Part shown: one piece after another, positions 4,187 through 27,268 of the stretch | Position numbering within the stretch: position 1 is the first letter of the stretch | Layout: the number at the start of each line of letters is the position of its first letter | Source: an uncultured bacterium | GTDB taxonomy: Bacteria; Verrucomicrobiota; Lentisphaeria; Victivallales; UBA1829 | Assembly: GCA_902778895.1 (NCBI GenBank) | Contig: CACYZF010000005.1 | Location: 62,001-126,000 of the forward strand | Reading direction: 5' to 3' | Length of the DNA: 64,000 nucleotides | The notes under the pieces: generated by a model | What the model was told of the DNA's origin: nothing | Seen by the model: only the letters and a program-made list of their open reading frames with translations | The model's database searches: none | Position numbers and translations under genes: made by a program

Positions 4187-5455
4187 ATGAACAAGACACT
4201 GTTGGCTGCCGCACTGGTCGTCGTTGGCGGAGCATCCCTTTTCGCAGGGGATATCTTCCGTTTCCGCGGCGAGAACTCTCAGGGGATGTACATGCAGGAA
4301 AAGGGGCTTCTGAAGACCTGGCCCCAGGAAGGACTGACCCCGAAATGGACCTATACCGGCCTCGGCGAAGGCTGGTCCAGCCCGATCAAGGTCGGGAACC
4401 GCCTGTACATCACCGGGACAGGCACGGGACGTCCGAGAAAGGAATCCGTTATCTGCCTCGACCTGGACGGCAAGGAAATCTGGAAGACCGTTACCGGTTC
4501 GGCTTGGGAACGTTCGTATCCTGGCGCCCGCAGCACCCCGACCTATGTGCCCGGCGAGAAGGAAGGCGAAGGCCGCCTGGTCGTGACGACCGGTTCCGGC
4601 GAGCTTTTCTGTCTGAACGCCGCCGACGGGAAGATCCTGTGGCAGAAAAACATCGCGAACGAGTACGGCTCCAAGTTCGGTATGTGGGCCATGGCGGAAT
4701 GCCCGGTCGTGAAGGACGGCGTGGTCTTCGTGACCGCGGGCGGCAGCAAGGCGCTCGTCGTGGCACTGAAGGTCGCGGACGGTTCCGTGGTCTGGACAGC
4801 AAAATCCAATGATGACACGCTCGCCTATGTGACCCCTGTCATCGTCGGCGATCAGCTGATCGTGATGACCGCCGGAAAAGTGAACGGCATCAACCTCAAA
4901 GACGGAACCGTGATGTGGGAAGACAATTACGCGAAGACGTCCGGTACGAACGGACGCGGCGGCGTGAACTGCAACTCCCCCACAGTTGAGGATAATCGTT
5001 TCTTCGTGTCCGCCGGATACGATCAGGGCGGTGTCCTGTACGAGTTGAAGAAAGACGGCAAGGGTGTAAATGTCATCTGGACCAATAAAAAACTGGACCC
5101 GCACCACGACTGCACCGTGCTGGTCGACGGCAAGCTCTACGGCTCGAACTGGACCAGCAACAACAGCGGGAACTGGATGTGCGTGGACTGGGAATCGGGC
5201 GAAACGCTTTACGAAACGCCCTGGAGCAACCTTGGCAAGGGATGCGTGATCTATGCCGACGGCCTGATGTACATCTACGAGGAAAAACGCGGCACGCTCG
5301 CATTGCTGAAACCCGGCGAAAAATTCGAGGTCGTCAGCAGTTTCCAGATCAAGTTCGGCGACAAGGAACACTGGGCGCATCCCGTGATCTGCGACGGCAT
5401 CATGTACGTCCGCCACGGAAACGTCCTCGGCGCATTTGACGTCAAGGCGAAATAA
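4187..5455 (+). CDS. Secreted PQQ-like beta-propeller protein
   Basis: 422 residues. Residues 1-21 form a classic Sec signal peptide (MNKTLLAAALVVVGGASLFAG). The mature protein carries repeated blades ending in W-docking motifs (GKEIWKTV, DGKILWQKN, DGSVVWTAK, DGTVMWEDN), the signature of PQQ/BamB-like eight-bladed propellers. Nothing shows the extra residues that bind PQQ itself in quinoprotein dehydrogenases, so a structural or ligand-binding role is as likely as catalysis. ATG 4187 is chosen because AAGGAG lies at 4172-4177. It is the first of four propellers associated with the following operon, separated from it by 220 b that hold a stable inverted repeat. Confidence 0.85.
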   Translation: MNKTLLAAALVVVGGASLFAGDIFRFRGENSQGMYMQEKGLLKTWPQEGLTPKWTYTGLGEGWSSPIKVGNRLYITGTGTGRPRKESVICLDLDGKEIWKTVTGSAWERSYPGARSTPTYVPGEKEGEGRLVVTTGSGELFCLNAADGKILWQKNIANEYGSKFGMWAMAECPVVKDGVVFVTAGGSKALVVALKVADGSVVWTAKSNDDTLAYVTPVIVGDQLIVMTAGKVNGINLKDGTVMWEDNYAKTSGTNGRGGVNCNSPTVEDNRFFVSAGYDQGGVLYELKKDGKGVNVIWTNKKLDPHHDCTVLVDGKLYGSNWTSNNSGNWMCVDWESGETLYETPWSNLGKGCVIYADGLMYIYEEKRGTLALLKPGEKFEVVSSFQIKFGDKEHWAHPVICDGIMYVRHGNVLGAFDVKAK

Positions 5456-5476
5456 GCCTGCCGCATTTACGTCGCT

Positions 5477-5675: not shown

Positions 5676-6308
5676 ATGACCAGCGAAGAACCGATCAAAA
5701 AAAGCAAACTCGTAATCTGCGCCTGCCGGAAGTACAGGAAGATCCCGCAGAACGTGCTGGACGAAGCAATAAAGACCGCGACGGAGGCGGGCGTCCCGTG
5801 CGAGATCGTGCCGGATCTCTGCCTCGACGGCGCATCCGGCAGGAGCATTGACGCGAATACGCTCGTCCTGGCCTGCCAGACGCGCGCCATCCGCGCGATG
5901 TTCGGCCCGGATACCGGCTGCACGGACGTCCGGGCGGCCGATCCGGCTCAGGTTTGCGATACGGTTCGATCTCTTGCAGGGCCGATGGTCTGGATCCCGT
6001 GGTTCCCGGTGATCGACGAAACGCGCTGCGTCAATTGCGGCAAATGCGCCGATTTCTGCATGTTCGGCGTGTATGAGAAAGTCGACGGGCGTTTCCGCGT
6101 CGTGCACCCGGCGGCGTGCAAGACGGACTGTCCCGCCTGCGCCCGGATCTGCCCCGCGAACGCGATCATCTTCCCGAAATCCAAAGAAGACCGCCTGAAC
6201 GGCGCTCTGTCCGAACCCGTCCAGCCGTCGCCCGACGACCAGACGTCATTCCGGGAGCGCCTGGAGTACCGCAAAAAAGTCCGGCTCTTCCGTGACAAAA
6301 TGAGGTAA
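5676..6308 (+). CDS. Ferredoxin-like protein with two [4Fe-4S] motifs
   Basis: 210 residues, no signal peptide. The C-terminal half has C118-x2-C121-x2-C124-x3-C128 and C148-x3-C152-x2-C155-x3-C159-P, a dicluster ferredoxin. The N-terminal half has a predicted alpha/beta unit with its own cysteines (C15, C17, C42, C49, C67) that I cannot assign to a family. The last 40 residues are charged and helical. It lies 9 b before the radical SAM gene and is a plausible electron donor for it or for the diaphorase further down. ATG is preceded by a C6-A7 tract (5657-5669) instead of a clear Shine-Dalgarno site, which is unusual. Function beyond electron transfer is unknown. Confidence 0.8.
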   Translation: MTSEEPIKKSKLVICACRKYRKIPQNVLDEAIKTATEAGVPCEIVPDLCLDGASGRSIDANTLVLACQTRAIRAMFGPDTGCTDVRAADPAQVCDTVRSLAGPMVWIPWFPVIDETRCVNCGKCADFCMFGVYEKVDGRFRVVHPAACKTDCPACARICPANAIIFPKSKEDRLNGALSEPVQPSPDDQTSFRERLEYRKKVRLFRDKMR

Positions 6309-6317
6309 TGGACCGAT

Positions 6318-7514
6318 ATGAACCCTTCCGCCATCACACGCATCCTGACGGGCTGTTCGTGGCGCGCGCAGCGGCATCTGCTGCGGTTCGCCTGGGACGG
6401 ACACCGGACCGTGCGTGCGTTCGAACGGCGGATGAAGGAGGGGAAACCGTTTTTTCCGGCGTTTCTGATGCTGTCGATCACGAATCGGTGCAACCTGAAA
6501 TGCCGCGGTTGCTGGGTGTCGCAGACGACCCCCGTCCGTCAGCTCACGCTGGCGCAGATGCAGGGTATCATCGACACCGCCGCAAAGTATCAATCGCGCT
6601 TCTTCGGGATCCTCGGTGGCGAACCGCTGTTTCACCCGGACCTTCTGACCTTGTTCCGGCGGAATCCGGGCGCGTATTTCCAGCTGTACACGAACGGGAC
6701 GATATTCGACGCGAAGCTGGCCGGAGATCTCGCCGCGCTCGGCAACGTGACGCCGCTCATCAGTATCGAAGGGCTGGAAACCGAATCCCGCCGCAGACGC
6801 GGCCGGGACGACGTTTTCGCGCGTTCGCTCGCCGGACTGGACGCGGCGGTGAAGGCCGGGCTTTTCACCGGCGTGACGGCGAGCATCAACATGAAAAACT
6901 TCGACGAACTCGTGAGCCGGGACTACCTCGATTTTCTGGTCGGCAGGGGCGTTCACTACATCTGGTATTTCATCTACCGTCCGTGCGGCCCCGACCCCGA
7001 CTGCGCGAATGCGCTGGACCGCGCACATGTGCTGGAACTCCGGCGGTTCCTGGTGGAACAGCGCCGGACGGCGAAGATCCTGATCCTGGACGCCTACTGG
7101 GACGCGGACGGACGCGCGCAGTGTCCCGGCGCGATGGGCCTTTCCCATCATATCGCGCCGAACGGCGCAGTGGAGTTCTGCCCGATCATGCAGGCCGCCG
7201 GAGGCATTCTGAACGAAACGGCGTCCAATCTGGAAGCGATCTTCCAGCAGGAAACCGTTCTGGCAAATCTGCGGAAGTTCAGCCCGTCGCAGGGCCGCGA
7301 CTGCATGGTGATCCATTCGCCGCGGGAACTGCTCGATACGCTGAAAGAGAACGGCGCGCAGGATTCCTCGGGACGTGACGGGTTCTTCCGCGAGCTTGCG
7401 GAACGCCCCCCGATGTGCTGTCACGACGTCCCCGGCGGCGAGATCCCCGAACAGTCCGCGGCCTACCGTTTCGGAAAACGCAACTACTTCTTCGGATTCG
7501 GAGCGTACGGATGA
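6318..7514 (+). CDS. Radical SAM enzyme with SPASM-like tail
   Basis: 398 residues. The [4Fe-4S]-SAM motif is C58-x3-C62-x2-C65 (CNLKCRGC), followed by the LGGEPLFHPD segment that binds SAM and by ISIEG. The C-terminal third has a SPASM-like run (QCPGAMG, then PNGAVEFCP, later MCCHD) that could hold auxiliary Fe-S clusters. Members of this superfamily abstract hydrogen from unreactive positions of peptides, cofactors or lipids. Flanked by a ferredoxin and a polyprenyl synthase fusion, with a 4-b ATGA overlap to the latter; a lipid or terpenoid substrate is a reasonable inference. It does not look like the hopanoid enzyme HpnH (no matching C-terminal domain). Confidence 0.85.
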   Translation: MNPSAITRILTGCSWRAQRHLLRFAWDGHRTVRAFERRMKEGKPFFPAFLMLSITNRCNLKCRGCWVSQTTPVRQLTLAQMQGIIDTAAKYQSRFFGILGGEPLFHPDLLTLFRRNPGAYFQLYTNGTIFDAKLAGDLAALGNVTPLISIEGLETESRRRRGRDDVFARSLAGLDAAVKAGLFTGVTASINMKNFDELVSRDYLDFLVGRGVHYIWYFIYRPCGPDPDCANALDRAHVLELRRFLVEQRRTAKILILDAYWDADGRAQCPGAMGLSHHIAPNGAVEFCPIMQAAGGILNETASNLEAIFQQETVLANLRKFSPSQGRDCMVIHSPRELLDTLKENGAQDSSGRDGFFRELAERPPMCCHDVPGGEIPEQSAAYRFGKRNYFFGFGAYG

Positions 7515-8992
7515 GCGAGGTCAAACAGACAGTCCCGCAGGACGCCGCGATCCGCGAAACGGTCCGCCGCGCGGCGGAGGACCTCGTGCGCTCGTCCGGC
7601 CTGAAGCCGCCGCTCGACCTGACGCACCTGAAACGGCATGCGGCGGCGCTGACTGCGTCGCTGGAGCTGGACGGACGCGGATTCGACCATTACGCCATGA
7701 TCGTGCTGAACAATGCGCTCTGGGCGCCGTATTTCCCCCACATCGCGCTCGAACAGCGCCTCCTGCTTTTGCCGTTCTGCCTGCGGAAACAGCCCGGCTG
7801 TACCGCCGATCACGACGACCTCGGATTGATCTGCCGCAGCTGCGGCCAGTGCAGTATTCCGGTTCTTTCCGCCGAGGCGGACGAGCTCGACATGCCCGTG
7901 CTGGTCGCCGAGTCGAGTTCCGCCGTGGCCGACTGGGTGGAACAGGGCATGATTCAGGCCGTCGTGGGCGTATCCTGCCTCGATTCGCTCGAAAAATCGT
8001 TCCCTTCGATGATCCGTTCCGCGGTGCCCGGGATCGCGGTCCCTCTGCTCCGCGACGGCTGCAAGGACACGATGTTCGATTCCGCCGACCTCGAACGCGC
8101 CATGTCCGTGCCGCAGGACGCGGAAATCCACGCGTTCCCCTACAGGCTGATCCGGAAGACGATCGATGATCTGTTCACGCCGGACGGGGTTTCCGCGTAT
8201 ATCCCGGACAACAGGCTCCGGGAGGAGGCCGTCCGCGCCCTGACCGCGCACGGGAAGCATTACCGTCCGAAGATCACGGCGGGATGCTATGCCGCGCTGA
8301 ATCCGTCCCGGGCGGACCTGCCGGAATACCTGAAACCCGTTGCGCTGGCCGTGGAGTGTTTCCACAAGGCGTCGCTGATCCACGACGACATCGAGGACGG
8401 CGATGCGGAACGTTACGGCGAACCGGCGTGCCATGTGCGGCTGGGGCTCGCTTCAGCGCTGAATCTGGGCGACTATCTGATCGGTGCAGGGTATAGGCTT
8501 TTCTGCCACGATTCGGTCCCGCCGGAAATGCGCGCCGTGCTCGCGTCCGAGGCCGCGCAGGCGCACTGCGAACTCGCGCTCGGACAGGCGACGGAATTCG
8601 AGGCGCTCCGGCAGCCGGTGTTTACGGTTGAGGAATGCCTGCTGATCCACCGGCTGAAAACGGCTCCGGCGTTCCGGGTGGCGCTCTACGCCGGCGCGGT
8701 CGCGGCCGGACGCTTCGACGAACTCCGCGATCTACTCCATGACTTTTCCGACCGTCTCGGCGCGGCCTACCAGCTGTACGACGACCTGGAGGATGCGGCG
8801 GACAATCCGGCGTCGGCGGTCGATGTGCTCATGAGGGCGAACGGCTGGGACCGCGAAACGGCGCGCGCGGAAACGGTCCGTCTGTACCGGGCGCAGCGCG
8901 ACGGCATTTACGATTTGCTTGAAACGGTCGGCGACGTGCCGCTGAAGATATACCTGTACCGCCTCTCCGGAAAGGTGCTGAACGATGTTTGA
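7511..8992 (+). CDS. DUF116-polyprenyl synthase fusion
   Basis: 493 residues, two domains. Residues 1-200 resemble DUF116: C108-x2-C111-x2-C114 in LICRSCGQCS and C156 in VGVSCLDSLEK, probably an Fe-S or metal site of unknown role. Residues 220-493 are a trans-isoprenyl diphosphate synthase: a GKHYRP segment (248-253) replaces the usual GGKRLRP, the first Asp-rich motif is D292-D293-I-E-D296 and the second D424-D425-L-E-D428. Both Asp-rich motifs look usable, so prenyl diphosphate chain elongation is likely. The start ATG 7511 overlaps the upstream stop; an in-frame upstream extension runs through the radical SAM gene and is not coding. The fusion ties a cysteine-rich domain to prenyl chain synthesis in one polypeptide, which I have not met before. 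Confidence 0.85.
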   Translation: MSEVKQTVPQDAAIRETVRRAAEDLVRSSGLKPPLDLTHLKRHAAALTASLELDGRGFDHYAMIVLNNALWAPYFPHIALEQRLLLLPFCLRKQPGCTADHDDLGLICRSCGQCSIPVLSAEADELDMPVLVAESSSAVADWVEQGMIQAVVGVSCLDSLEKSFPSMIRSAVPGIAVPLLRDGCKDTMFDSADLERAMSVPQDAEIHAFPYRLIRKTIDDLFTPDGVSAYIPDNRLREEAVRALTAHGKHYRPKITAGCYAALNPSRADLPEYLKPVALAVECFHKASLIHDDIEDGDAERYGEPACHVRLGLASALNLGDYLIGAGYRLFCHDSVPPEMRAVLASEAAQAHCELALGQATEFEALRQPVFTVEECLLIHRLKTAPAFRVALYAGAVAAGRFDELRDLLHDFSDRLGAAYQLYDDLEDAADNPASAVDVLMRANGWDRETARAETVRLYRAQRDGIYDLLETVGDVPLKIYLYRLSGKVLNDV

Positions 8993-9767
8993 TCTGGATT
9001 TCCTGAGGACATGCACCGCCGGATTCGGACGGATGACCGACGAGGCGCAGGCCGTGCTCCGTCAGACGGTTTCGCTGGCGCAGAGGCCGGACGGGCTGTT
9101 TCCCGACCGCGGCGGACAGGGCGACCTGTACTACACCCTGTTCGGGCTGTGTCTGGCGTACATTTCCGGCGCAACGGTCGAACGCGACGCCTGCGCCCGG
9201 ACACTGGAGCACGCCGCGCCCGCCGATCTCGTGCATCGGGCGGCGCTGGCGCACAGCCGGAATCTGCTGAAACTGATGAAACTGCCTCGCACAATTCGGA
9301 AAATGCCGTTTCCCGCGCCGGCACTTGATTTCCCCGACCTGCCGGATGCCGCATTTCCGCAGGGCGATCGGTATTCGCCGTATTCGTGTTTCCTGCGGAA
9401 CGACACCGCGACCGACCTGAGCGCGTACCGTCTGCCGGACGGTCTGTATTCCAACCTGAAAGGCGCTTCGGAATACGGCGTGGCGGCGACCTCGGCGGCG
9501 TTGTGTCTGCACCCGGACGAAACGACCGCGGCGGCGCTCGCCGGACTTCAGGACCCGGACGGGACATTCCCCGGCGGCGACCTGCTTTCGACCGCCGTGT
9601 CCCTGTACGCGCTCCATCGGACCGGGCATGCGGCGCGATACGACGTGTGCGGTTTTCTGAGCGGGTGTTTCCGTCCGACCGGACTTTTCGCGGCGGTCCC
9701 CGCCGACCCGTTCGGCGACCTCGAATATACGGTTTACGGGCTTCTTGCCATGGGGGCGACGGCATGA
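8985..9767 (+). CDS. Single-toroid prenyltransferase/squalene-oxidase-repeat protein
   Basis: 260 residues composed of repeats such as RPDGLFPD, GDLYYTLFGLCLAY, DPDGTFPGGD and GDLEYTVYGLLAMG, which are alpha/alpha-toroid repeats shared by prenyltransferase beta subunits and class II terpene cyclases. No DxDD motif is present, and the D-x-C...H zinc ligands of protein prenyltransferases are not visible, so catalysis by either known chemistry is doubtful. It overlaps the prenyl synthase gene by 8 b and the full cyclase gene by 4 b. A non-catalytic partner of the next protein, completing a cyclase assembly, is the most economical reading; a prenyl-chain binding protein is an alternative. Confidence 0.75.
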   Translation: MFDLDFLRTCTAGFGRMTDEAQAVLRQTVSLAQRPDGLFPDRGGQGDLYYTLFGLCLAYISGATVERDACARTLEHAAPADLVHRAALAHSRNLLKLMKLPRTIRKMPFPAPALDFPDLPDAAFPQGDRYSPYSCFLRNDTATDLSAYRLPDGLYSNLKGASEYGVAATSAALCLHPDETTAAALAGLQDPDGTFPGGDLLSTAVSLYALHRTGHAARYDVCGFLSGCFRPTGLFAAVPADPFGDLEYTVYGLLAMGATA

Positions 9768-11374
9768 CGGACACGCTGAAACGATTCATCCTGTCGCACT
9801 GTTGCGAAGACGGCTTCATCGAGGGGCATCTTTCGAGCTCGGCGGTCTCGACCTCGGTCGCGTGCGTGGCGCTGGAACTCTTCGGCGGACACGACGACGC
9901 GGTCGAAGCCGGCAGAAAGTGGCTGCTGGAACATAAAAACGCGGACGGCCTGTACGGCGACTCCCCGGAATCCCCGGCCAACCTGACTGCGACATTTCTG
10001 GCCTATTCCGCGCTGCGGAACACCCATGCCGACGACGTGCGTGAAGCCGAAGCATACCTCAGCAAAACGTTCGGCGGACTGACGTTCGGGGCGGTCAAGG
10101 CGGGACTCCTGAAAGAATATGGCGAAGACCTCACGTTCTCCGTGCCGCTGCTGGCGCTCGCGACCGCGTCCGGGTTCTTCCCCGACGCCACGCACGCCTG
10201 GCGCAATATGCCGAATTTCCCGTTCGAAGCCTCGCTCCTGCCGGAATCCTGGTTCAAATTCCTGAATCTCCCGGTCGTGAGCTACGCGATCCCCGCGCTC
10301 ATCTGCGTGGGACTGGCGCAGCTCCGGTACCGTCCCAATAAACTTCGTGCGCTCGCCGTGAAAAAAGCATTGCGCGTCCTGACCGAAAAACAGCCGGAGG
10401 ACGGCGGTTTCCTTGAAGCCGCGCCCCTGACCGGATTTTGTTTGATCTGTCTCTGCGCCGCCGGGTTGCGCGAACACCCCGCGGCAAAGCTCGCGGTCCG
10501 GTTCCTGAAGGAAAGTCAGCGCCCGGACGGCTCGTGGCCCATCGACCGCGATCTGCGCCTGTGGACGACCTCGCTTGCGCTGGATGCGCTTGCCCCGTCG
10601 CTTTCCAGGGAGGAAAAAGAATTCTACCGTGCCCGGATGCTGTCGGCGCAGACAAAAACGGTCCATCCGTTCACACGCTCGGAACCCGGCGGCTGGGCCT
10701 GGACGACGCATTCCGGCGGCGTGCCCGACGCGGACGACACGTCGGGGGCGCTCATCGCCCTCCACGGACTCGGCGAACCGGCCTCGGATGCGGTTTGCCG
10801 GGGCATCACATGGCTCCTGAACCTCCAGAATTCCGACGGCGGCATCCCGACCTTCTGCAAAGGCTGGGGAAAACTGCCGTTCGACCGCAGCTGCCCGGAC
10901 ATCTCCGCCCATGCGTACAAGGCATTCTCTCTGTTCGAAAACGAACTCCCGCCCGCCCTGAAACGCCGCGTGGCCCGCGCGAAACGGCGCATCCTGCGGT
11001 ATCTGCAGGATGTCCGGCGGCCGGACGGCTCGTTCGTTCCGCTCTGGTTCGGCGACCAGACGAATCCCGCGAAGGAAGCGCCCGCCTACGGCAGCGCGGT
11101 CGTGTTGTCGCACCTGAGCGGCGAGAATCTTCCGTTTCTGGAGAAGACGCGCGAATATCTGCGTTCGGCGCGGGGCGCGGACGGGCTGTGGGGAACAGTC
11201 TGCGTTTCCGCCCGCTGTGCCGTGGCTCTGAATATGGACGGTGCATTCCTGAACCCTTATGCGGATCATCCCGAATCGCTCCCGCTCGAGCCGATCGGGC
11301 TGTACTTCGCGCATCTCTGGTACAGCGAGGAGCTGTACGCCCCGGTCTTTCTGGCAAAGGCGGTGAGATCATGA
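9764..11374 (+). CDS. Class II terpene cyclase, squalene-hopene cyclase family
   Basis: 536 residues. The protonating acid motif of class II cyclases is intact: D322-A-D324-D325-T in GGVPDADDTSGA. QW-type repeats are frequent (QRPDGSW, QNSDGGIPTF, RRPDGSFVPLW, ARGADGLWG). The protein is about 100 residues shorter than typical squalene-hopene cyclases, and its wording around PTFCKGWGKLPFDRS resembles the planctomycete branch. It should cyclise a linear polyprenyl chain made by the upstream fusion; whether that is squalene, a polyprenyl diphosphate or a prenylated quinone cannot be told. ATG 9764 lies in an ATGA overlap; the in-frame frame extending upstream is a shadow of the toroid gene. Confidence 0.85.
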   Translation: MTDTLKRFILSHCCEDGFIEGHLSSSAVSTSVACVALELFGGHDDAVEAGRKWLLEHKNADGLYGDSPESPANLTATFLAYSALRNTHADDVREAEAYLSKTFGGLTFGAVKAGLLKEYGEDLTFSVPLLALATASGFFPDATHAWRNMPNFPFEASLLPESWFKFLNLPVVSYAIPALICVGLAQLRYRPNKLRALAVKKALRVLTEKQPEDGGFLEAAPLTGFCLICLCAAGLREHPAAKLAVRFLKESQRPDGSWPIDRDLRLWTTSLALDALAPSLSREEKEFYRARMLSAQTKTVHPFTRSEPGGWAWTTHSGGVPDADDTSGALIALHGLGEPASDAVCRGITWLLNLQNSDGGIPTFCKGWGKLPFDRSCPDISAHAYKAFSLFENELPPALKRRVARAKRRILRYLQDVRRPDGSFVPLWFGDQTNPAKEAPAYGSAVVLSHLSGENLPFLEKTREYLRSARGADGLWGTVCVSARCAVALNMDGAFLNPYADHPESLPLEPIGLYFAHLWYSEELYAPVFLAKAVRS

Positions 11375-12804
11375 CGGCCCGTGCCCTCAATTTCATTTTG
11401 AAAACGTTAGCCGTCGCCGCGGCCTGCCTCGGCATCTGGCATTACCTGACCTATACCACGTTGCGCCATGTGGAGTATGCGGAACCCGTCCGCGACAAAT
11501 CCGAGAACCGCGTCGTGAAGAAGATGACTACGCAGATCGGCGCGGACTTCAAAAAGTTCGAATCCGGGGCGAAGATTCAGACATTCGGGGCGGAATGGCC
11601 GTGCTTCCGCGGCGTGTCGCGCGACAATCTGGCGAAATACGACGGTCATCTGACCAGGACCTGGGACGAAGCCGGACCGAAAGTCCTCTGGCGGAAGCCG
11701 CTTGGCGAGGGATACTCCGGCGCGATCGTCGCGGGCGGACGCGTGTACGTGCTGGACTACATCGAGGAGGATTCGTCCGACGCCCTGCGTTGTTTCGAAC
11801 TGTTCAGCGGCGAAGAACTCTGGCGGCGCGGCTATAAGAACCCGATCCGGCGCAATCACGGAAAATCCCGTACGATCCCGGCGTTTTCCGACGGTGTGGT
11901 CGTCTCGCTCGGCCCTGCGGCGCATGTGATGGCGGTCGACGCGGTGTCCGGCGATCTGCTCTGGACCCGCGACCTGGTGGAAGCCTACGGAGCCGAGATC
12001 CCGCAGTGGTACGCCGGACAGTGCCCCCTGATCGAGGACGGCAGAGTGATCCTCGGCGTCGGCGGGGAAAAAGTCCTGATGACCGCGCTCGACCTGAGGT
12101 CGGGTGAAACGGTCTGGGAGATGCCGAACGAGCACGGGCTGAAGATGTCGCATTCCTCCGTCGTGTCCGCGACGCTCTGCGGCACGAAACAATACGTCTA
12201 TGCCGGCATCGGCGGAATCTGCGCCTGCGATCCGCAGGGGAAACAGCTCTGGATCTGCACGAAATGGAAACCGGCGGTCTGGGCTCCCACGCCGCTCGTG
12301 ATCGGCGACGGCAGGCTTTTCCTGACAGCCGGCTACGGCGCCGGGTCCGCCACACTCGCCGTGACGAAAGACGGCGATGCTTTCACCGCCTCGATCGAAC
12401 AGGAATGGAAGCCGACGCAGGGCCCGGCATCCGAACAGCAGACCCCGATCCTGATCGGCGACACGATGTTCGTGATCCAGCCGAAGGACGCCGGAGCGCG
12501 CCGCGCGGAGTTCATCGCGGCCGACGTTTCCGCGCTGCCGGCGGTCAAGTCGGAAAGCGGCAAGGACGCCCGGTTCGGGCTCGGCCCCTACATCTACGTC
12601 GACGATGCGTTCTGGATCCTGGACGACGAGGGCGTGCTCTCGGTTTACGAGTACAAAGACGACCGGTTCGAACGTCTGGCGACTCACAAGATTCTGCCCG
12701 GTGCGGATTCCTGGGGGCCGATCGCGTTCGCCGGAGGACTTATGATTTTACGGGACAGCACCTCCATGGTGTGTCTCGATCTGCGAAATGAGGTGCAGCA
12801 ATGA
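11371..12804 (+). CDS. Membrane-anchored PQQ-like beta-propeller
   Basis: 477 residues. A single hydrophobic segment at about 8-28 acts as an uncleaved anchor, placing the propeller in the periplasm. The propeller opens with EWPCFRGVSRDN, the W-P-x-F-R-G motif frequent in planctomycete-type propellers, and continues with blades marked by VLWRKPLGE, GEELWRRG, GDLLWTRD and GETVWEMP. It overlaps the cyclase stop by ATGA and is followed by another ATGA overlap. No haem or metal motif is visible. In this setting it may dock onto the periplasmic Fe-S proteins encoded next; that is inference. Confidence 0.82.
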   Translation: MTARALNFILKTLAVAAACLGIWHYLTYTTLRHVEYAEPVRDKSENRVVKKMTTQIGADFKKFESGAKIQTFGAEWPCFRGVSRDNLAKYDGHLTRTWDEAGPKVLWRKPLGEGYSGAIVAGGRVYVLDYIEEDSSDALRCFELFSGEELWRRGYKNPIRRNHGKSRTIPAFSDGVVVSLGPAAHVMAVDAVSGDLLWTRDLVEAYGAEIPQWYAGQCPLIEDGRVILGVGGEKVLMTALDLRSGETVWEMPNEHGLKMSHSSVVSATLCGTKQYVYAGIGGICACDPQGKQLWICTKWKPAVWAPTPLVIGDGRLFLTAGYGAGSATLAVTKDGDAFTASIEQEWKPTQGPASEQQTPILIGDTMFVIQPKDAGARRAEFIAADVSALPAVKSESGKDARFGLGPYIYVDDAFWILDDEGVLSVYEYKDDRFERLATHKILPGADSWGPIAFAGGLMILRDSTSMVCLDLRNEVQQ

Positions 12805-13427
12805 AAATGACCCGCAGGGAATTTCTCGTCTGGCTCAGTGGGACCTTCTGCCTCGGCCTGCTCGGCTGGCTGGTCGGCCGCAAACTCCAGGTTCCGCCCG
12901 AACCCGTGCCGGAGGCTCCGTTCGAGCTGCCGATGTTCGCCGTGAGGCCGAAACACGTCCTGAACGGAATGAGTTTCCAGGTGGACCGCGCGAAACGCAC
13001 CGTGCTGGCGAACATGGAGTCCGGCGGCCCCGTGTGGGAATCGCGCGGAGAGGACAAGTTTATCGTGCCCGGCGCGGCGTTTCCGCTGGATTTGTCGCCC
13101 GAGGGCGAACTCTGGGTGGCGAACATCGGACGCAAACGGCTGGAACAGCTTGACCCGGCCACGGGACGTTTCATCGCCTCGTGGGAACCCCGCGAAGCGT
13201 TCGGCGGCTGCTGCAATCCCGTCCGGTTCGCCGCGCTCCCCGGCGGACGGTTCGTGACCATGGAGAAAGGCGTCCGGCGCGCGTGCGTGTATCTGCCGTC
13301 CGGCGAACTCGAACGCGTCATCACGGACCAGCTTTCCGATTCCGAGTTCAATTATTACCTGGGACGCGACGCTGGTAAAGTGCATCTTTACGACACCGGC
13401 ACGAAACAGCACTGGGAGGTCTCCTGA
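12801..13427 (+). CDS. Tat-type secreted NHL-like propeller fragment protein
   Basis: 208 residues. The N-terminus MKMTRREFLVWLSG followed by a hydrophobic stretch is a twin-arginine (Tat) signal or anchor. The remainder has NHL/SMP-30-like strands (LDLSPEGELWVANIG, LDPATGRFIASWE) enough for about half a beta-propeller, so it may pair with itself or another propeller. A CC pair (FGGCCNP) is present. It is coupled on both sides: ATGA with the anchored propeller before, TGATG with the small Cys protein after. Function unknown; the Tat signal implies folding, or assembly with a cofactor-bearing partner, before export. Confidence 0.75.
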   Translation: MKMTRREFLVWLSGTFCLGLLGWLVGRKLQVPPEPVPEAPFELPMFAVRPKHVLNGMSFQVDRAKRTVLANMESGGPVWESRGEDKFIVPGAAFPLDLSPEGELWVANIGRKRLEQLDPATGRFIASWEPREAFGGCCNPVRFAALPGGRFVTMEKGVRRACVYLPSGELERVITDQLSDSEFNYYLGRDAGKVHLYDTGTKQHWEVS

Positions 13428-14220: not shown

Positions 14221-15440
14221 TCCGGCATCTTTCCCTCCTGTTCGCGGCGCAGGCCCGGTTCCCGGCACCGGAGTTCGAATCCTACACGCTGCCCCAGATG
14301 TCGCTGGAGGAACTCGCCTCCGACTCCGTGTTGTGGCGCGTGCTGATCCTCGCGGTCTTTCTGGCCGCCGGGACCTGGTTCTTCTATAAACTCCGTTCGC
14401 GCCGCGCGCTTCTGGCGTATTCCGTCGCCGGGCTTGCCGTGTTCGGGTTCCTCTTCGCGTCCTGCCCGTGTCCTGTCGGGATGTTCCAGAACGTCGCCGA
14501 GGGGATCGCGAACGGTTCGTACATCCAGCCGGGTGTGCTGCTGCTCTTCGCGCTTCCGCTGGCGGTCGCACTGTTCGCCGGACGCGTTTTCTGCGGCGGA
14601 GCGTGTCCGCTCGGCGCGATCCAGGAGCTGCTGCACTGGAAAAGCGTTTTTATCCCGCGTCCGCTGGACCGCATCCTGCGACTGATCCCGGTGCTTCTGC
14701 TGCTGATCTTCTCGGTCTGCGCGGTCTACGGGATCGGATTCCCGCTGTGCTATCTGGAACCTTACCTTCCGGTCTTTCTGCTGGACTTCGCCACGCCGTT
14801 CGCGATCCTGAGCGCGGTCTTCCTGACGGCCGGACTTTTCATCTCGCGGCCGTTCTGCCGCTATGTCTGCCCCTATGGCGTCCTGCTCCGGTTCTTCTCG
14901 TACTTCTCCCTGCTCAGGCCGCAGATCACGTCGCGCGAATGCGTGAACTGCCGGCTGTGCGAACAGGGCTGTCCGAACGGCGCGATCCTGCCGCCGGAGG
15001 ACGCGGGAAGCACGTCGGATCACCGAAGCGGATTCCGGCGCATCTCGATGCTGACCGCCCTGATCCCGTTTGCACTGTTCGCGGGCGGGCTGTTCGGATT
15101 TTTCTGCGCGCCCGTCCTGAGTTCGTTCCACCGCGATATCCGGCTGGTCCGCGAACTTGACGCCGGAATCAGGAGCGAGGCCGTGGAAGCGTTCGAAAGC
15201 ACCACGACGACGCGCGAGGAACTCCGTGCCCGCGCCGTGAAACTTCAGAACGGCGTCCTGCTCGCCTCGACCTCCGCGGGCGTGCTGTTCGGCGCGGTCG
15301 TGATGGCCGAGCTGATTGCGGAGGCGCGCCGTCGCAAGGAAGAAGAAATCTATACCATTGACCCGTCGCTTTGTTTCTGCTGCGGCAGATGCTACGCCGC
15401 ATGTCCCCTGGAACGCAAGGAGAAGCACCATGAAAAATGA
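14217..15440 (+). CDS. NapH/NosR-like membrane polyferredoxin
   Basis: 407 residues with about six membrane helices. The membrane part carries the conserved loop motifs FCGGACPLGA (C126, C130) and FCRYVCPYG, which face the cytoplasm in NapH/NosR/CcoG-type proteins. A [4Fe-4S] motif follows (CVNCRLCEQGCPNGA), then two more hydrophobic segments (near 279-300 and 355-372) and a last motif CFCCGRCYAACP at the C-terminus. The family passes electrons between quinols or cytoplasmic donors and periplasmic acceptors. No FMN-binding domain is fused. It is expected to be the membrane core of the operon's electron route. The stop overlaps the next start by 11 b. Confidence 0.85.
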   Translation: MIRHLSLLFAAQARFPAPEFESYTLPQMSLEELASDSVLWRVLILAVFLAAGTWFFYKLRSRRALLAYSVAGLAVFGFLFASCPCPVGMFQNVAEGIANGSYIQPGVLLLFALPLAVALFAGRVFCGGACPLGAIQELLHWKSVFIPRPLDRILRLIPVLLLLIFSVCAVYGIGFPLCYLEPYLPVFLLDFATPFAILSAVFLTAGLFISRPFCRYVCPYGVLLRFFSYFSLLRPQITSRECVNCRLCEQGCPNGAILPPEDAGSTSDHRSGFRRISMLTALIPFALFAGGLFGFFCAPVLSSFHRDIRLVRELDAGIRSEAVEAFESTTTTREELRARAVKLQNGVLLASTSAGVLFGAVVMAELIAEARRRKEEEIYTIDPSLCFCCGRCYAACPLERKEKHHEK

Positions 15441-17123
15441 CGAAATACGCCGGACGCTGCGGTTCCTGCAGTGGACGGCATTGACATTCATCCTCACGCT
15501 CGGCCTGCTGCTGGCGTACGACATGTACCGGAGCCGCGCCCCGATCAGACAGGCGCAGGACGAGCTCGCCGAACTGAAACAGCAGGACCTGGCGGACGCG
15601 AAGCTCGCGCAAACCGTGCGCGATCTGGACTACCTGTACCGTTCCGCGTATTTCCAGACGAAGGACAAACAGCGCCGCGGCGTGCTCCTGCTCGGGATTG
15701 CGTTCTTCCTGCTCTGCGGCCTCTTCAGCGCGGAGATGTTCTGGTTCGCGCCGAAACTGAAGGTGCCGCGCGGCACGGGTGCGGCTCCCGAGAAAGAACG
15801 CCGCCAGCTGCTGGTGTTCGCGTCCTGCGGGATCATCGTGCTGGTCGCCGCGCTCGCGGTCCTGCGGATCGTGCTTGTCCCGGCGGAGACGAAAAAGCCG
15901 GTACAGCTTGCCGGAACACCGGACGGTGCGGCCATTCAGCCCGCCGCGACGAAGCCGGACATCCCGACGGAAACGATCGATCTGCTCGCGGCGCTTGAGG
16001 CGGAAAAGACGCAGTGGCCGCAATTCCGCGGGTCGATCCTGCCGAACGCCAACGCGCTCCCCGCGAAATGGGATTTCCAGGAGAAATGGAACAGCCCGGT
16101 GGCGCTCCCCGGCAACAACTCACCGGTGATCTGGGACGACCTCGTATTCCTGTCCGGCGGCGACGGCACCAGCCACGCCGTGTTCTGCTATGACGCCAAT
16201 TCCGGCGAGCTGAAATGGAAAACGGACGCGCCTCCGCCTGCGAAGATGCCCGAAGTGACGGAGGACACCGGATACGCCGCGCCGACCATGTGCGCGGACT
16301 CGAAACGCGTCTACGCGGTCTTCGCCACCGGCGAGGTGCTCTGTCTCGATCACGACGGCAGGATCCTCTGGCACAAACAGCTGCCCGATCCCGTCATCAT
16401 GTACGGCTACGCCTCCTCGCCGCTTCTGCTCGGCGACAAGCTGATCGTGCAGTACGATTTGGACGAAACACAGACGGTTTTCGCGCTGAACGTGTTCACC
16501 GGGGAAACGGTTTGGAAGACCGAACGGGAAGCCTCGGCCTCGTGGTCGTCGCCGCGCGGATTCGTGGCGGACGGCAAGGGCATGATCTTCGCGGCGGGCA
16601 ACCTCCTTGCCGAAGCGTTCAGCCTCGAAGACGGCAAGGTGCTCTGGTCGCAGGATTGCATGGGCGGGGAAGTCGCGACCTCGGCTACCTCGAACGACGG
16701 CGTGATCTATTTCTCGAACTCCGGCGCGTTCACCGGAGCGTTCCGTGCCGCGGACGGGGAGATCCTGTTCCGGAATGACGATCCGCCCGCGCCGGACGTG
16801 GCGTCGCCGGTCCTCTGCGGCGACCAGTTCCTGCTGTTCGGCAGCGGCGGCACCATCATCGCCATCGACGCGAAAGACGGCCGCGAGCTCTACGAGGAGG
16901 ATCTTGATAACGGGTTCTATTCCTCGCCGGTCGTCGTCGGCGGCAGGATCGTGGCGGTCAACCTGGACGGCGATCTGTATGCGTTTGCGCCCGGCGCGGA
17001 CAAGATCGAGACTGTGGGAAAATTCTCCCTCGGGAAGAAAGTCGTCTGTGTTCCGGCGTTCCACAAAGGCAACCTGATCCTCCGCACGGACGACAATGAA
17101 CTCATCTGCCTGGAGTCGAAGCC

Positions 17124-17127
<4 letters not shown>
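15430..17127 (+). CDS. Triple-TM PQQ-like beta-propeller
   Basis: 565 residues. Residues 1-145 contain three hydrophobic helices (about 13-30, 79-101, 119-142) with a charged coiled-coil-like segment (38-60) between the first two. The propeller starts near 195 with QWPQFRGSILPN (W-P-x-F-R-G motif again) and has docking motifs GELKWKTD, GRILWHKQ, GETVWKTE and GKVLWSQD. The membrane part has no known domain name to me. It sits between the NapH-like protein and the diaphorase, so it probably belongs to the same membrane complex. The in-frame region upstream of 15430 is inside the NapH gene and is not coding. Confidence 0.83.
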
Positions 17128-20048
<2,921 letters not shown>

Positions 20049-20054
20049 CCTGCC

Positions 20055-21146
20055 ATGAAGTTTTTTCGCATCGCTGCTCTGATTATTCTGTTCCTGCTGG
20101 GGGCCGCTTGTCTCGTGTGGTATTTCCGTACAGGCGACACGGATAATACAGAAAAAAAGGAGGCCTCCGGCATGCTCCTGACGGATACTTCCCCGCTCGG
20201 CGAACTTTCGGTCCTGTCCGACGGCACGCTCGCCGCCGGGAACGCACGCGGCGAGGTGAAGTTTTTCCGTACGGGCGAACCTGTGCAGACGGTCTCCGTA
20301 TCGAAGATTTCGATCTCCGCCCCGGTCGCGGAGTTCGACGGCGTCTGCTACGTCGGCGACGAGGGCGGCACGTTCGCGGCGTTCACGCCGGACAAAGGCG
20401 TGCTGTGGACGTTCCGCGCGGGCAACCAGATCACGGGCGGCGCGGTGCGGGATTCCGACGGTCTCGTCTGGTTCGGATCCCACGACCATTCCCTGTACGC
20501 GCTGGACGCCTCGGGGAAACTTGTTCACGAGGTCGAATGCAACGGGCAGATCAACGGCTCCCCGGTGTTCGACGGCGCCTTCGTGTACCTGGGCAGCTGC
20601 GACGGCAAGCTCCGCAAGATCGACATCCACACGGGCGAGGTCGTGAAGTCGCTGGATTTCGAGTCCTACATTCCGGAAACCCCGGTCCTGTCTGATGGCG
20701 TGCTGTTCATCCTCACCCACGGCGGCGAGCTCGCGGCGGTCAACGCCGACAGCTTCGAGCTCCTCTACCGGGTCAAAACCGAAAACACGTTTTTCACCTC
20801 GCCGTTCGTGACGGAATTCGACATCTTCCTGACGGATTCCAACGGGAAGATTCATGTACACAAGCGCGCGGACGGCACATATCTGGCCGATCTGCCTTCC
20901 GACGATTCTCTGAATCCGATCTGCACCGGCTTGGACCGCGGCGTCTACACGATTTCCCGCCGGGGCGTCCTGAGCCTTTTCGCCGTTCCATCGAGACTGC
21001 GCGGGGGCTGGAGCTGGAAGCAGTACGTCATCGCAAAGTTTCCGTCCGACTTCAAATCGGGCGTGATCGCGGCTGGCGGCATCCTTGCCGTCCCCGATGA
21101 ATACGGCAATGTTTTCTTCGCCGAAAAAAAGGAGTTAGAAAAATGA
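20055..21146 (+). CDS. Membrane-anchored PQQ-like propeller, short form
   Basis: 363 residues. A hydrophobic segment at about 5-24 anchors the protein; the rest contains propeller blades such as GVLWTFRAG, DHSLYALDASG, DGKLRKIDIHTGE and YVGDEGGTFAAF, the PQQ/BamB-like pattern. It is smaller than the other three propellers (six or seven blades at most) and lacks the W-P-x-F-R-G motif. It follows the diaphorase by 6 b, with AAAGGAACTG as ribosome binding site, and overlaps the ABC ATPase by ATGA. Role unknown; placement suggests a periplasmic accessory of the redox chain or of the ABC transporter. Confidence 0.8.
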   Translation: MKFFRIAALIILFLLGAACLVWYFRTGDTDNTEKKEASGMLLTDTSPLGELSVLSDGTLAAGNARGEVKFFRTGEPVQTVSVSKISISAPVAEFDGVCYVGDEGGTFAAFTPDKGVLWTFRAGNQITGGAVRDSDGLVWFGSHDHSLYALDASGKLVHEVECNGQINGSPVFDGAFVYLGSCDGKLRKIDIHTGEVVKSLDFESYIPETPVLSDGVLFILTHGGELAAVNADSFELLYRVKTENTFFTSPFVTEFDIFLTDSNGKIHVHKRADGTYLADLPSDDSLNPICTGLDRGVYTISRRGVLSLFAVPSRLRGGWSWKQYVIAKFPSDFKSGVIAAGGILAVPDEYGNVFFAEKKELEK

Positions 21147-21781
21147 ACTTGACCGTTACCGATTTGACCAAGACCTTCACGCGAGCGGACGAGCGCATCG
21201 AACTGTTTCGCCGTTTTAATTTGACATTGAACGCGGGCGAGGCGTTGACCGTGCTCGGCCCCTCCGGCAGCGGCAAGACCACGCTCCTGCGGATGATCGC
21301 CGGAATCGAGCCGTCCGACGGGGGCACGATCCTGTTCGACGGACAGGACATCTTCGGGATGCCCCCGGAAGAACGCCGGGCGTTCCGTCTGCGCCACATC
21401 GGATTCGCGGACCAGTACGCGCGCATGCTGCCGCAACTGACCGCGCTGGAAAATGTGCAGATCCCGGCGGCAGGCGAGGGAAAGGACTACTCCGCCCGCG
21501 CAAAAGAGCTCTTGACGGAATTCGGCCTTGCCAAACGCATGGACCATTTCCCCGCCGAATTGTCCGGCGGCGAACTTCAGCGGGTCGTTCTGGCGCGCGC
21601 TTTGATCCTCGAACCGGAATTCCTGCTGCTGGACGAACCGACATCCGCGCTGGATGCCGTCCGGAGCGATTCCCTGCTGGAACTCCTGCGCGACGTGAAC
21701 CGCACGCACGGGACCGCGATCCTGATGGTCACGCACAATACCCGCGTTCTGGACTTCTTCCCCCGTTCGGTGAGCTTATGA
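21143..21781 (+). CDS. ABC transporter ATPase, LolD/YbbA type
   Basis: 212 residues, the normal length for LolD/MacB/YbbA-class ATPases. Walker A GPSGSGKTT (39-47), signature LSGGE (140-144), Walker B LLLDEP with D164-E165, and H-loop VTHN are all intact. These ATPases power mechanotransmission permeases that extract lipoproteins or hydrophobic molecules from the membrane rather than ordinary solute channels. Overlaps the preceding propeller and the following permease by 4 b each. In this operon it would be suited to extract or move the lipid or lipidated product; this is inference from context. Confidence 0.9.
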   Translation: MNLTVTDLTKTFTRADERIELFRRFNLTLNAGEALTVLGPSGSGKTTLLRMIAGIEPSDGGTILFDGQDIFGMPPEERRAFRLRHIGFADQYARMLPQLTALENVQIPAAGEGKDYSARAKELLTEFGLAKRMDHFPAELSGGELQRVVLARALILEPEFLLLDEPTSALDAVRSDSLLELLRDVNRTHGTAILMVTHNTRVLDFFPRSVSL

Positions 21782-24621
21782 CCTCTCTCTCCCGTCTGTT
21801 CCTGCGCGATCTCCGGTATCACTGGAAAGGGCTTGCGTCGCTGACCGCGGCGGCATGCCTGATCTGCGCGGTCCTGACGGGCGCTTTCCTGATCGGCGAC
21901 AGCGTGCGCGGGACGCTGATGGACAATGTAAAACACAACGCGAAAGTCGCACGGTATCGCCAGAAATTCCCCATTCCGGTGTCCAGTCCGGTTCAAAACG
22001 CCCTGGGCGTGCTTCATGTGAAGGGCTTCACGAAGGACGGGATTCCGATCGATGTCTACGCGCTGCCGGACGATTCCATTTCCGGACGCGATGCCCGGGG
22101 CAGTTCCGCTCTGGAGAAGAAACTGAATTTGAAGGACGGCGAAATGCTTTCCGTCCGCATCCCGGAACTGAGTACGATCCCGGCGGAAAGCGCCATGGGA
22201 AAGCCGCCCGAGCTCAAGCAGATGCCGTTTGTGTGGCGCGGCGAATGGACCGGGGCTGAAAGCGAGCTCAATTTCGACGATCCGCAGTTGCCGCCGGACA
22301 ATCTTTTTGTCAGCCGGGAGGCGCTCGCGCAGGCGCTTGACCTGCCGGACAATGCCGTGAACGAGGTCTGGATGCAGGAACCGGAGCCGCCTTCCGACGA
22401 TCTCCTGTGGGAGCTTTCCGGGCTGACGCTGGACGAATGGGACGGGCGTCCCGTCCTGAAATGCAAATCCTATTTCCTGCCGAAAGCCGTTTCGGATGCA
22501 TTGCCGAAGGAGGCCACGCCGATCCTGACGCTGTTCGTGGAGACGCTTTCCGACGGCAAAACGAGCCTGTCGTACTGTTTCGCGGGGGCGATCCGCGGCG
22601 ATCCCGTCCCGGTCGAACGAGGCCATGTGCTGGTTTCGTCCGGCCTGAAGGAACGGTTCGCCGGTCCGGTCGGACTTTCTTACTTCACGTCCGGTTCCTT
22701 CCGCACGATTCAGCGGAAAACGGCGGAAATCGGGCATGCCGGAACGGTCGACGATTCCAGCATCACGGATGTGCTGTCGCCGGAGATACCCGGCCTGACG
22801 GATTCCGCAGACTGTTCCGGCTGGGAAGCCGCGATTCCGATCGACTTCGACCGGATCAGGGACGAGGACGAAGCGTACTGGAACGAGTACCGGAGCAAGC
22901 CGAAACTGTACCTGAACTTCGAGGAGGCGCAGGAGATGTTCGCGCCCGGACTCTGCACCGCCGCGCTCTTCCCGGCGGACTGGACCGCGGACCGCGTCCG
23001 GCAGGAGACGCTGAAGACGCTTCGGACCATGCCGGAATACAGCCGCGTGGAAGACATCACGAACAGGACGGCGGACAAAGTCTCGCGCGGCGTCCCGTTC
23101 GCGCCGCTGTTCCTCGGACTGAGCTTCTTCCTTATCGTCTCCGGTCTGCTCGTGCTGGCAATGCTTCTGAAACTGCATATTCAGGACCGTGCGGCCGAAC
23201 TCGCATTGCTGACCGACTACATGCCGCTCAAACGCGTGCGGAAATTTCTGCTCGCGGAGTTCGCCGCCGTGCTGATCCCGGGGATGCTCGCCGGACTCGC
23301 GGTCGGCACGCTCCTGTGCCGGTTCCAGATCTTCCTGCTGGAACACTCCTGGAACGGCATCGTGCTGATGGAGCGCATCCGGTTCCACGGACGGCCGGTC
23401 TCCTACCTCATCGCCTTTATTGTTTCGGCGGCGTGCGCGTGGGCGGTCGTAATGCTTTCCGTCCGGCGGACGAGCTCGAATCAAACGAAACTCGCCCGGC
23501 CTTATTCCTCCCTCGTGCGTCCGGTCTGGCGCATCGGGATGCTTTCCTTCGTCCGGCTCTGCCGTCAGTATTCGCTGTGCGCGGTACTGCTGGTGCTGGG
23601 GTATCTCGGCACGCTCGGCGTCGGGGCGTTCGGGATCAAGTCGCGCGGCGAGGACGCCTTCGGGTACGCCTATGTCGCGGCGACGCTTCTGCCCGTCGTC
23701 CCGGACTATGATGCGCCGTTCCCCGCGGGCGGTCTCCCCGTACGCGTCCATGCCGCCGACCGTGCAGACTGCTCCAATCTGCTGCTCGCGGCCAGTCCGA
23801 CCGTGTACGGCGCCGACCTCGAAGCGCTGACCGGCGATCCCGGATTCCTGAAGGACGGTTCGGCGGCGGTCGACGAAGGCTCGCTCGTGTGGATCCTGCG
23901 GAAAAAACAGCATGATTCCGTGGACTATCCGAACGGCCCGCTCACGCTGGACCGCGTGCTGAAAGCCTCGGTCTTCCAGGGCGGCGTGCTGACAGGACTC
24001 GACACCTTCGAACGTCTTTTCCCGGAAACGGAGGGCGCGCAGTTCTTCCTGATCAAAAGCGAAGCCGATGTCCCCGCCTGGCGCGAATATCTTGAACCGT
24101 TCGGCCTGAATTTGTGTTCGGCCGACGAATTCATGAACCGCGCCGAACGCTTCCAGAACCGCTATCTGGCGATTTTTTTGCAACTCGGGCTGCTTGGCGC
24201 TCTGCTTGGATTCGGGGCGCTGGTCCTGCTCATGATGCGGAACCTCCGAGCCCGCGAGGCGGAGACCGTCCTGCTCGCGGAAACCGGATGGTCCCGCAGG
24301 ATGCTCGTGATGCTTTATTTGACCGAAAACCTGTGTCTTTTCCTCGGCAGCGCGGGCGTTTCCCTGCTTCTGCTCCTGCTGCTGGCGGCGTTCGCCTCGC
24401 TGAATCTCGCCGTTCTGCTGGGAGGATTCGTGTTCCTGACCGCCGCGGGCATCCTGATGATCGCCGGGATGATCGAACTGTATTTCCTGCCCTGCAGCGG
24501 CGTTTACCTGAAACGTTTCTATCTGAAGTCGCTCTGTTACGGAAACACGTGTTTCCGGTACGAACAGCGGAGCAATTCTCCTTGCATCCCGCATAAAAAA
24601 GCGCGCGATCCTCCGCGCTGA
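21778..24621 (+). CDS. FtsX-type ABC permease with two modules
   Basis: 947 residues. One N-terminal helix (about 19-41), a periplasmic region of about 390 residues, three helices (about 442-560), another helix near 600, a second periplasmic region and three C-terminal helices (about 797-920). Two FtsX-like modules in one chain recall YbbP-type permeases, whose ATPase partner is also LolD-like. The stop lies inside a short GC hairpin (AGCGCG 24600-24605 with CGCGCT 24614-24619), and the last 25 residues after the final helix look unlike a conserved tail, so the natural terminus could have been altered. It ends the gene run; 135 b later an unrelated gene starts. Confidence 0.85.
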   Translation: MTSLSRLFLRDLRYHWKGLASLTAAACLICAVLTGAFLIGDSVRGTLMDNVKHNAKVARYRQKFPIPVSSPVQNALGVLHVKGFTKDGIPIDVYALPDDSISGRDARGSSALEKKLNLKDGEMLSVRIPELSTIPAESAMGKPPELKQMPFVWRGEWTGAESELNFDDPQLPPDNLFVSREALAQALDLPDNAVNEVWMQEPEPPSDDLLWELSGLTLDEWDGRPVLKCKSYFLPKAVSDALPKEATPILTLFVETLSDGKTSLSYCFAGAIRGDPVPVERGHVLVSSGLKERFAGPVGLSYFTSGSFRTIQRKTAEIGHAGTVDDSSITDVLSPEIPGLTDSADCSGWEAAIPIDFDRIRDEDEAYWNEYRSKPKLYLNFEEAQEMFAPGLCTAALFPADWTADRVRQETLKTLRTMPEYSRVEDITNRTADKVSRGVPFAPLFLGLSFFLIVSGLLVLAMLLKLHIQDRAAELALLTDYMPLKRVRKFLLAEFAAVLIPGMLAGLAVGTLLCRFQIFLLEHSWNGIVLMERIRFHGRPVSYLIAFIVSAACAWAVVMLSVRRTSSNQTKLARPYSSLVRPVWRIGMLSFVRLCRQYSLCAVLLVLGYLGTLGVGAFGIKSRGEDAFGYAYVAATLLPVVPDYDAPFPAGGLPVRVHAADRADCSNLLLAASPTVYGADLEALTGDPGFLKDGSAAVDEGSLVWILRKKQHDSVDYPNGPLTLDRVLKASVFQGGVLTGLDTFERLFPETEGAQFFLIKSEADVPAWREYLEPFGLNLCSADEFMNRAERFQNRYLAIFLQLGLLGALLGFGALVLLMMRNLRAREAETVLLAETGWSRRMLVMLYLTENLCLFLGSAGVSLLLLLLLAAFASLNLAVLLGGFVFLTAAGILMIAGMIELYFLPCSGVYLKRFYLKSLCYGNTCFRYEQRSNSPCIPHKKARDPPR

Positions 24622-27241: not shown

Positions 27242-27268
27242 TGTGGATCCGGGAAAGGCAGACGACAA

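Follow-up and report, generated by a model that had tools for sequence, protein, structure and literature searches.

Known systems and the locus

The flavin-based extracellular electron transfer locus of Listeria exports electrons and carries its own prenyl synthase, an FMN_bind protein and a UbiA-type enzyme. NapH is marked by CX3CP motifs in its membrane part together with 4Fe-4S motifs. A NapH-NapG fusion polyferredoxin of MLMS-1 has been described, and the same paper gives NapH four transmembrane segments (PMC5449189). How does the locus studied here compare? It lies in a window of 64,000 nucleotides (contig CACYZF010000005.1, positions 62,001 to 126,000) from an uncultured bacterium of the Lentisphaeria (Victivallales; GCA_902778895.1), and its genes are lettered a to r. 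The genes b-f form a terpenoid half, and g-p, with a, a redox half. Three observations support a link between the halves: their gene order is shared by members of three phyla, they co-occur in two sets of genomes, and they have been joined more than once, in different orders. Tentatively, and with somewhat less than even confidence, we read them as a two-part system, in which a relay for electrons from reduced nicotinamide adenine dinucleotide (NADH) to the periplasm would be combined with its own cyclic terpenoid, likely serving the relay as a membrane lipid.

As in NapGH, a membrane NapH-like protein with 4Fe-4S motifs and CX3CP motifs (k) adjoins a twin-arginine polyferredoxin (j). However, both fall below the NCBIfam cut-offs, k has 7 transmembrane-like segments instead of the four of NapH, and the operon adds an NADH module and terpenoid genes, while no reductase was recognised in it. 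Like the NADH module of complex I and the HoxEFU-type diaphorases, m holds the cofactor domains of NuoE, NuoF and the N-terminal part of NuoG, but on one chain of 974 amino acids (aa), and no family of the proton-pumping membrane arm was matched among the 15 proteins b to p (Pfam, E <= 0.01). The RnfA, C, D, E and G set of the Rnf complex is not encoded in the operon, where only RnfB/RnfC-like matches below cut-off occur. With the Listeria locus it shares predicted electron-export genes and an own prenyl synthase, but it has a DxDD cyclase, a radical SAM enzyme and DUF116 instead. The initial annotation had drawn this parallel, which breaks down at the quinone: the window's genome showed none of the usual quinone pathways (the classical Men genes were not searched), and neither FMN_bind nor UbiA was matched in the 18 window proteins scanned with Pfam.

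The terpenoid half has its own closest relatives. The cyclase f belongs to the squalene-hopene cyclase superfamily with DxDD and SQHop domains, as in hopanoid loci, but it is far below the hopene-cyclase cut-off, no squalene/phytoene synthase was found in the genome, and the prenyl synthase alongside is fused to DUF116. The toroid e is like the beta subunits of protein prenyltransferases (Rab GGTase) in its modelled fold and unlike them in having no conserved Cys. Judged by titles, searches of the open-licence literature of PubMed Central gave no described system of this content and no pairing of a predicted NADH relay with a predicted cyclic-terpenoid pathway. Two widespread gene sets, for neither of which a described function was found, turn out to be partners. 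If the halves act together, Lentisphaerae, planctomycetes and Bacteroidales would have a periplasmic electron path needing no usual quinone, paired with a terpenoid pathway that does not use squalene.

Association of the two halves

The host assembly has 3.24 Mb and is 94% complete; the window is part of its contig C5. Open-frame analysis gives a packed block on the plus strand at 5676-24621, with 15 genes (b to p) and 14 junctions. Twelve junctions are overlaps of 1, 4, 8 or 11 b, and the other two are gaps of 9 b (6308/6318) and 6 b (20048/20055). Gene a (4187-5455) is set apart from the block by 220 b. The initial annotation had reported fourteen genes and 13 junctions; both totals were one too low, while its 12 overlaps of 1-11 b and its two short gaps are as described. 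The tightly overlapping gene set on one strand is real, and the order in relatives and the co-occurrence make it more than chance packing.

The alignment of d was scanned against the contigs of named genomes, which gave at least 542 confirmed stretches; the best 80 were kept as loci, with flanks of up to 10 kb. Among these, the loci closest to the window are RUG records, which we take to be rumen genomes. The order b-c-d-e-f-g-h-j-k-l-m on one strand occurs in 7 of the 80 loci (L022, L024, L025, L027, L031, L032 and L099). They span Lentisphaerota, Planctomycetota and Bacteroidota; by title they are Oligosphaera ethanolica, the complete genome 'Planctomycetes bacterium syqfu', a Lentisphaerae bacterium, a Rikenellaceae record and three uncultured RUG bacteria. 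The genes n-o-p follow m in all six of these loci for which further flank was fetched (all but L032). Further loci reach g and then the contig end, e.g. L023, L026 and L030. Where 5 kb or more of sequence follows d (50 loci), e is present in 38 and f in 28; over all 80 loci, b is found in 50 and i in 5.

Do the halves also co-occur in whole genomes? With j as marker of the redox half (E <= 1e-20) and d as marker of the terpenoid half (E <= 1e-40), 197 genomes of the window's class (called Lentisphaeria, including Oligosphaera) contain j in 45 and d in 47: the two occur together in 40, j by itself in 5, d by itself in 7 and neither in 145 (Fisher p 5.9e-29). In the class to which Planctomycetales ZRK34 belongs (298 genomes), j is found in 82 and d in 63: 44 genomes have the two together, 38 have j without d, 19 have d without j and 197 have neither (p 9.5e-16). 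When only the 65 strong j matches of the latter class are counted, 38 genomes have d as well and 27 do not (p 1.3e-14). These Fisher values overstate the evidence because shared ancestry is ignored; the repeated joinings of the halves are independent of them.

Such joinings are seen in the planctomycete class. Of its 44 genomes with both markers, 16 have j and d on one contig at a distance of up to 20 kb, and 27 have the best matches on different contigs; the distance in ZRK34 is 3.5 Mb. Ten of the 16 joined loci were read, where c2 denotes a different radical SAM protein in place of c. Terpenoid genes (b-f) are followed by n-o-p-g-h-j-k-l in L196, L198 and L199, and redox genes by b-c2-d-e-f in L195 and L197. 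The two halves stand back to back in L190, L191 and L194, and they are interleaved as a-n-b-c2-f-d-g-j-k in L192 and L193. Within the window's order, two genomes (G115 and G116) have g-h-j-k ahead of b-f. Since the halves were joined repeatedly in different orders, they should share a task. The linkage shows this shared task and no more.

Several observations weigh against the reading of a lipid that serves the relay. The halves have been joined repeatedly, yet each is also found alone: in the planctomycete class 38 of 82 j-positive genomes lack d and 19 of 63 d-positive genomes lack j, and in the window's class the corresponding numbers are 5 of 45 and 7 of 47, of which incomplete metagenome-assembled genomes may explain some. 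Hence not every relay requires the terpenoid, and not every terpenoid pathway requires the relay. The d loci without a full adjacent redox half come from 68 genomes; in the 45 of these that were tested, j is present in 18 (two of them weak) and was not found in 27. The 17 weaker j matches of the planctomycete class (E 1e-30 to 1e-48) are accompanied by d in 6 cases, which is not a significant association (p 0.22). Pairwise distances of j and d over 27 taxa agree weakly (r 0.33, with 3 of 2000 permutations as high); the same crude test gives 0.89 for d and f and only 0.36 for the neighbours j and k. In ten redox-only loci read from the 27 strong j-only genomes, h-j-k-l-m is retained in order in nine, and the tenth (L189), near a contig end, has g-j-k-l-o. 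Are the halves, then, generally apart elsewhere, the outcome on which the initial annotation would have taken the arrangement for chance packing? The picture is mixed: they co-occur and have been joined repeatedly, but only 7 of the 80 terpenoid loci reach m alongside (with flanks of up to 10 kb, some cut short by a contig end) and each half exists by itself.

Could the association reflect a shared niche or Fe-S economy, without direct chemistry between the halves? An anaerobic chain for NADH disposal and a hopanoid-like membrane stiffener would then simply be selected together. Fe-S proteins are indeed abundant in both halves, each half occurs alone, and f resembles cyclases known to make membrane stiffeners. 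However, overlapping reading frames and several joinings in different orders are not readily explained by co-selection, and we regard it as improbable.

The terpenoid half

The first gene, b (5676..6308, plus strand, as are all genes a to r), encodes a 210-aa protein with a Cys-rich N-terminal part and a 4Fe-4S domain (Fer4 matches in Pfam). It is followed by the radical SAM enzyme c (6318..7514; Radical_SAM 2.5e-19), in which the CxxxCxxC motif (C58, C62, C65) is accompanied by invariant Cys at 269, 288 and 329 in an alignment of 14 rows. In planctomycetes, c2, a protein of about 500-600 aa, takes its place (L037, L046, L077, L101, L190, L195 and L196); such an alternative protein stands beside the core in 10 loci of the d scan and in 8 of the 10 joined planctomycete loci.

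Gene d (7511..8992) is a fusion of a DUF116 domain, with 7 invariant Cys, to a polyprenyl synthase, and its named relatives come from Lentisphaeria, Victivallales and Phycisphaerales. Both DDxxD motifs of polyprenyl diphosphate synthases are present, as HDDIED and a DDLED-type motif (13 rows), and the small residues A and S precede the first. Small residues at this position are the rule for a longer prenyl chain, which suggests that d may make such a product.

Next to d lies e (8985..9767), an alpha-alpha toroid of 260 aa whose modelled fold is that of a protein-prenyltransferase beta subunit. The zinc site of protein prenyltransferases is Asp-Cys-His, with a conserved Cys ligand. Because no Cys of e is invariant or conserved at 90% over 24 rows, e should be without this site. 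The initial annotation had called e a companion of the cyclase; a toroid does stand beside f, but its modelled fold is better described as that of a prenyltransferase beta subunit.

The class II (DxDD) terpene cyclase f (9764..11374; SQHop_cyclase_C 6.1e-22) has at least 7998 relatives. Its motif is PDADD in 16 of 18 rows, including that of f itself, and PDGDD in the other 2. It matches the squalene-hopene cyclase of PDB with E 2.4e-38, while its score for hopene cyclases (TIGR01507) is 74.4 bits against a cut-off of 431.

In a number of loci of planctomycetes, verrucomicrobia and acidobacteria (L033, L039, L056, L096, L097 and others), the terpenoid core has further neighbours, namely cysteine desulfurase-like genes (10 loci), GcvH-like genes (11 loci), CobW genes and a Cys protein of about 120 aa. 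These neighbours hint at sulphur or metal chemistry.

The redox half

Gene g (11371..12804) encodes a membrane-anchored PQQ_2 propeller (4e-23; transmembrane-like segment at 5-23), and h (12801..13427) an anchored protein of 208 aa with twin arginines at 5. Homologues of h also lie between g and j; h itself has no Pfam match, while for one relative there is a weak match to SGL/NHL. All of h, i and j have twin arginines close to the N-terminus, and TatC was found in all 8 genomes tested. The protein i (13427..13678) has 83 aa and four Cys. The predicted exported polyferredoxin j (13675..14220) has 17 Cys and three Fer4_6 stretches (1.8e-12), and its twin arginines are kept in 6 of 8 alignment rows; it has at least 7551 relatives. 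Named Bacteroidales, Parabacteroides and Macellibacteroides among them, encode close relatives of j that carry the label ferredoxin or RnfB (P0173, P0186, P0198, P0214 and P0235).

The NapH-like membrane ferredoxin k (14217..15440; Fer4_5 2.5e-13) has two CX3CP motifs and two ferredoxin-type Cys motifs, with C126/C130, C214/C218 and C242-C252 invariant in 8 rows. It is followed by l (15430..17127), a PQQ_2 propeller (5.9e-38) on a membrane anchor with 3 transmembrane-like segments, and by m (17124..20048). The latter is a predicted NADH-oxidising module, in which NuoE, NuoF, a dicluster ferredoxin and the N-terminal part of NuoG follow each other (Complex1_51K 1e-43, 2Fe-2S_thioredx 1.1e-42, NADH_4Fe-4S 1.2e-23, NADH-G_4Fe-4S_3 4.3e-7). 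In the redox operon of ZRK34, m is split into a 792-aa NuoE-F fusion and, for the NuoG-like part, a separate 529-aa flavin/Fe-S protein (L143:2993-4582, minus strand) with Fer2, Fer4_20 and a pyridine-nucleotide oxidoreductase domain. This 529-aa protein suggests a different or bifurcating electron input, and similar second genes are found in other planctomycete loci.

Is the locus then a NapGH-type quinol dehydrogenase, or an extracellular electron transfer locus, that works with an ordinary quinone whose side chain is made by the terpenoid genes? The resemblance of k and j to NapH and NapG, the polyprenyl synthase in d and menaquinone-type genes in some carriers speak for it. But k reaches only 48 bits for TIGR02163 (cut-off 213) and 43.9 for PRK09477 (cut-off 234), and j 26.6 bits for the exported NapG polyferredoxin PRK09476 (cut-off 269). 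The operon has no UbiA match, the search of the window's genome (94% complete; classical Men genes not searched) gave no MqnA/D and a single EboC-like UbiA protein, and to our knowledge a DxDD cyclase is part of no quinone pathway. Thus an ordinary-quinone locus appears highly improbable.

Quinone and squalene background of carriers

What lipids could the carrier genomes make otherwise? The squalene/phytoene synthase family (PF00494) was found in 3 of 11 genomes searched (G043, G215 and G247), with the control positive in 7 of 14; it gave no match in the window's genome, G011, G001 or Oligosphaera (G088). Nor did the same four genomes give a match for the MqnA/D family (PF02621); the classical Men genes were not searched singly. 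The one UbiA-family protein found in the window's genome (G000:C2:28781-29437) is EboC/SCO3242-like, below those cut-offs, as are one of the two of G011 and those of Oligosphaera and G042. The second UbiA-family protein of G011 resembles decaprenyl-phosphate phosphoribosyltransferase, and G001 also has a UbiA-family protein. MqnP-like proteins are present in syqfu and Rikenellaceae, and MqnA/D family proteins in these two, ZRK34 and G247.

The system therefore lives with and without a visible menaquinone pathway, within the same limit on the Men genes. Two of these results add to the evidence against a lipid that serves the relay. Menaquinone-type genes accompany both halves in syqfu, Rikenellaceae and ZRK34, so the terpenoid is not simply a substitute for menaquinone, and among the operon's genes none could be recognised as one for a redox head group. 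If m oxidises NADH, quinol is not needed as an input, and it is possible that quinones come from outside the host. It is a long shot that a dedicated cyclic terpenoid replaces the isoprenoid quinone, which would give a new class of membrane electron carrier in anaerobes without menaquinone or ubiquinone.

A possible mechanism

How might the two halves work together? From the binding domains in its sequence, m is predicted to oxidise NADH through flavin mononucleotide and Fe-S clusters. Electrons would then enter k at its cytoplasmic clusters, traverse the membrane along its Cys-rich transmembrane segments and exit on the outside with j, and in some species also with i. On the terpenoid side, d would make a polyprenyl diphosphate, which f would cyclise with the aid of e, the toroid; the radical SAM enzyme c, together with the ferredoxin b, would alter the cyclic terpenoid. 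The n-o-p genes, together with the propellers a, g and l, may position the lipid and the redox proteins; o and p form an ATP-binding cassette (ABC) pair of the type that extracts lipids or lipoproteins from the inner membrane. The terpenoid may work with k, as a bound lipid or as a carrier. From the cofactor domains, the relay itself is plausible. The initial annotation proposed that the operon makes its own terpenoid, used in or modified by NADH-driven electron delivery; the link between the halves stands, while the electron path and the product are read from protein families.

The relation may also be reversed. Electrons of the relay would then modify the terpenoid: a periplasmic step fed by j reduces or matures the cyclic lipid, and the ABC pair and propellers move it towards the outer membrane. 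Co-occurrence and joining of the halves fit this equally, n-o-p stays with the redox half even where that half is alone (L180, L185 and L186), and the propellers a, g, l and n could be scaffolds for the lipid or its partners. But redox-only genomes (38 of 82) would have no such lipid, unless it comes from elsewhere; they weaken both directions of the relation. Of the 45 genomes tested for d loci with no redox half next to them, 27 have the terpenoid half without j, and the Pfam matches of the operon include no recognisable terminal reductase. We consider a relay that modifies the lipid rather unlikely, and prefer a lipid that serves the relay because the terpenoid half is present in many genomes without j. 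Note that Oligosphaera ethanolica DSM 24202 is a carrier strain, which opens the system to lipid analysis.

Neighbouring genes and setting

The initial annotation rightly listed three anchored propellers and an ABC extractor: g, l and n have PQQ_2 matches, and o and p are a pair of LolD/FtsX type. The BamB-like anchored propeller n (20055..21146; PQQ_2 8.9e-18) is kept before o in relatives. The ATPase o (21143..21781; ABC_tran 1.8e-34) is of LolD/MacB type, with 182 bits for the LolD family TIGR02211 against a cut-off of 308, and p (21778..24621) is an FtsX-type permease of 947 aa (FtsX 8.1e-7). Ahead of the block, a (4187..5455) is a secreted PQQ_2 propeller (1.4e-31) with a signal peptide-like N-terminus. 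In relatives its homologues either precede b or come after p, the latter in the Oligosphaera and Rikenellaceae loci.

Downstream of p, the unit probably extends to 26662, taking in a MIP channel (q, 24757..25566; MIP 2.9e-44) and a CobW-family GTPase with CxCC (r, 25571..26662; cobW 3.9e-19). CobW homologues occur in 23 of the 80 loci, and in L023 and L024 a MIP-CobW pair lies ahead of b. Three hybrid histidine kinases (HisKA, HATPase and receiver) flank the operon at window positions 1375-3267, 27269-32014 and 32583-36782. A long minus-strand frame at 27212-32068 has no Pfam match and is probably a shadow of the second kinase.

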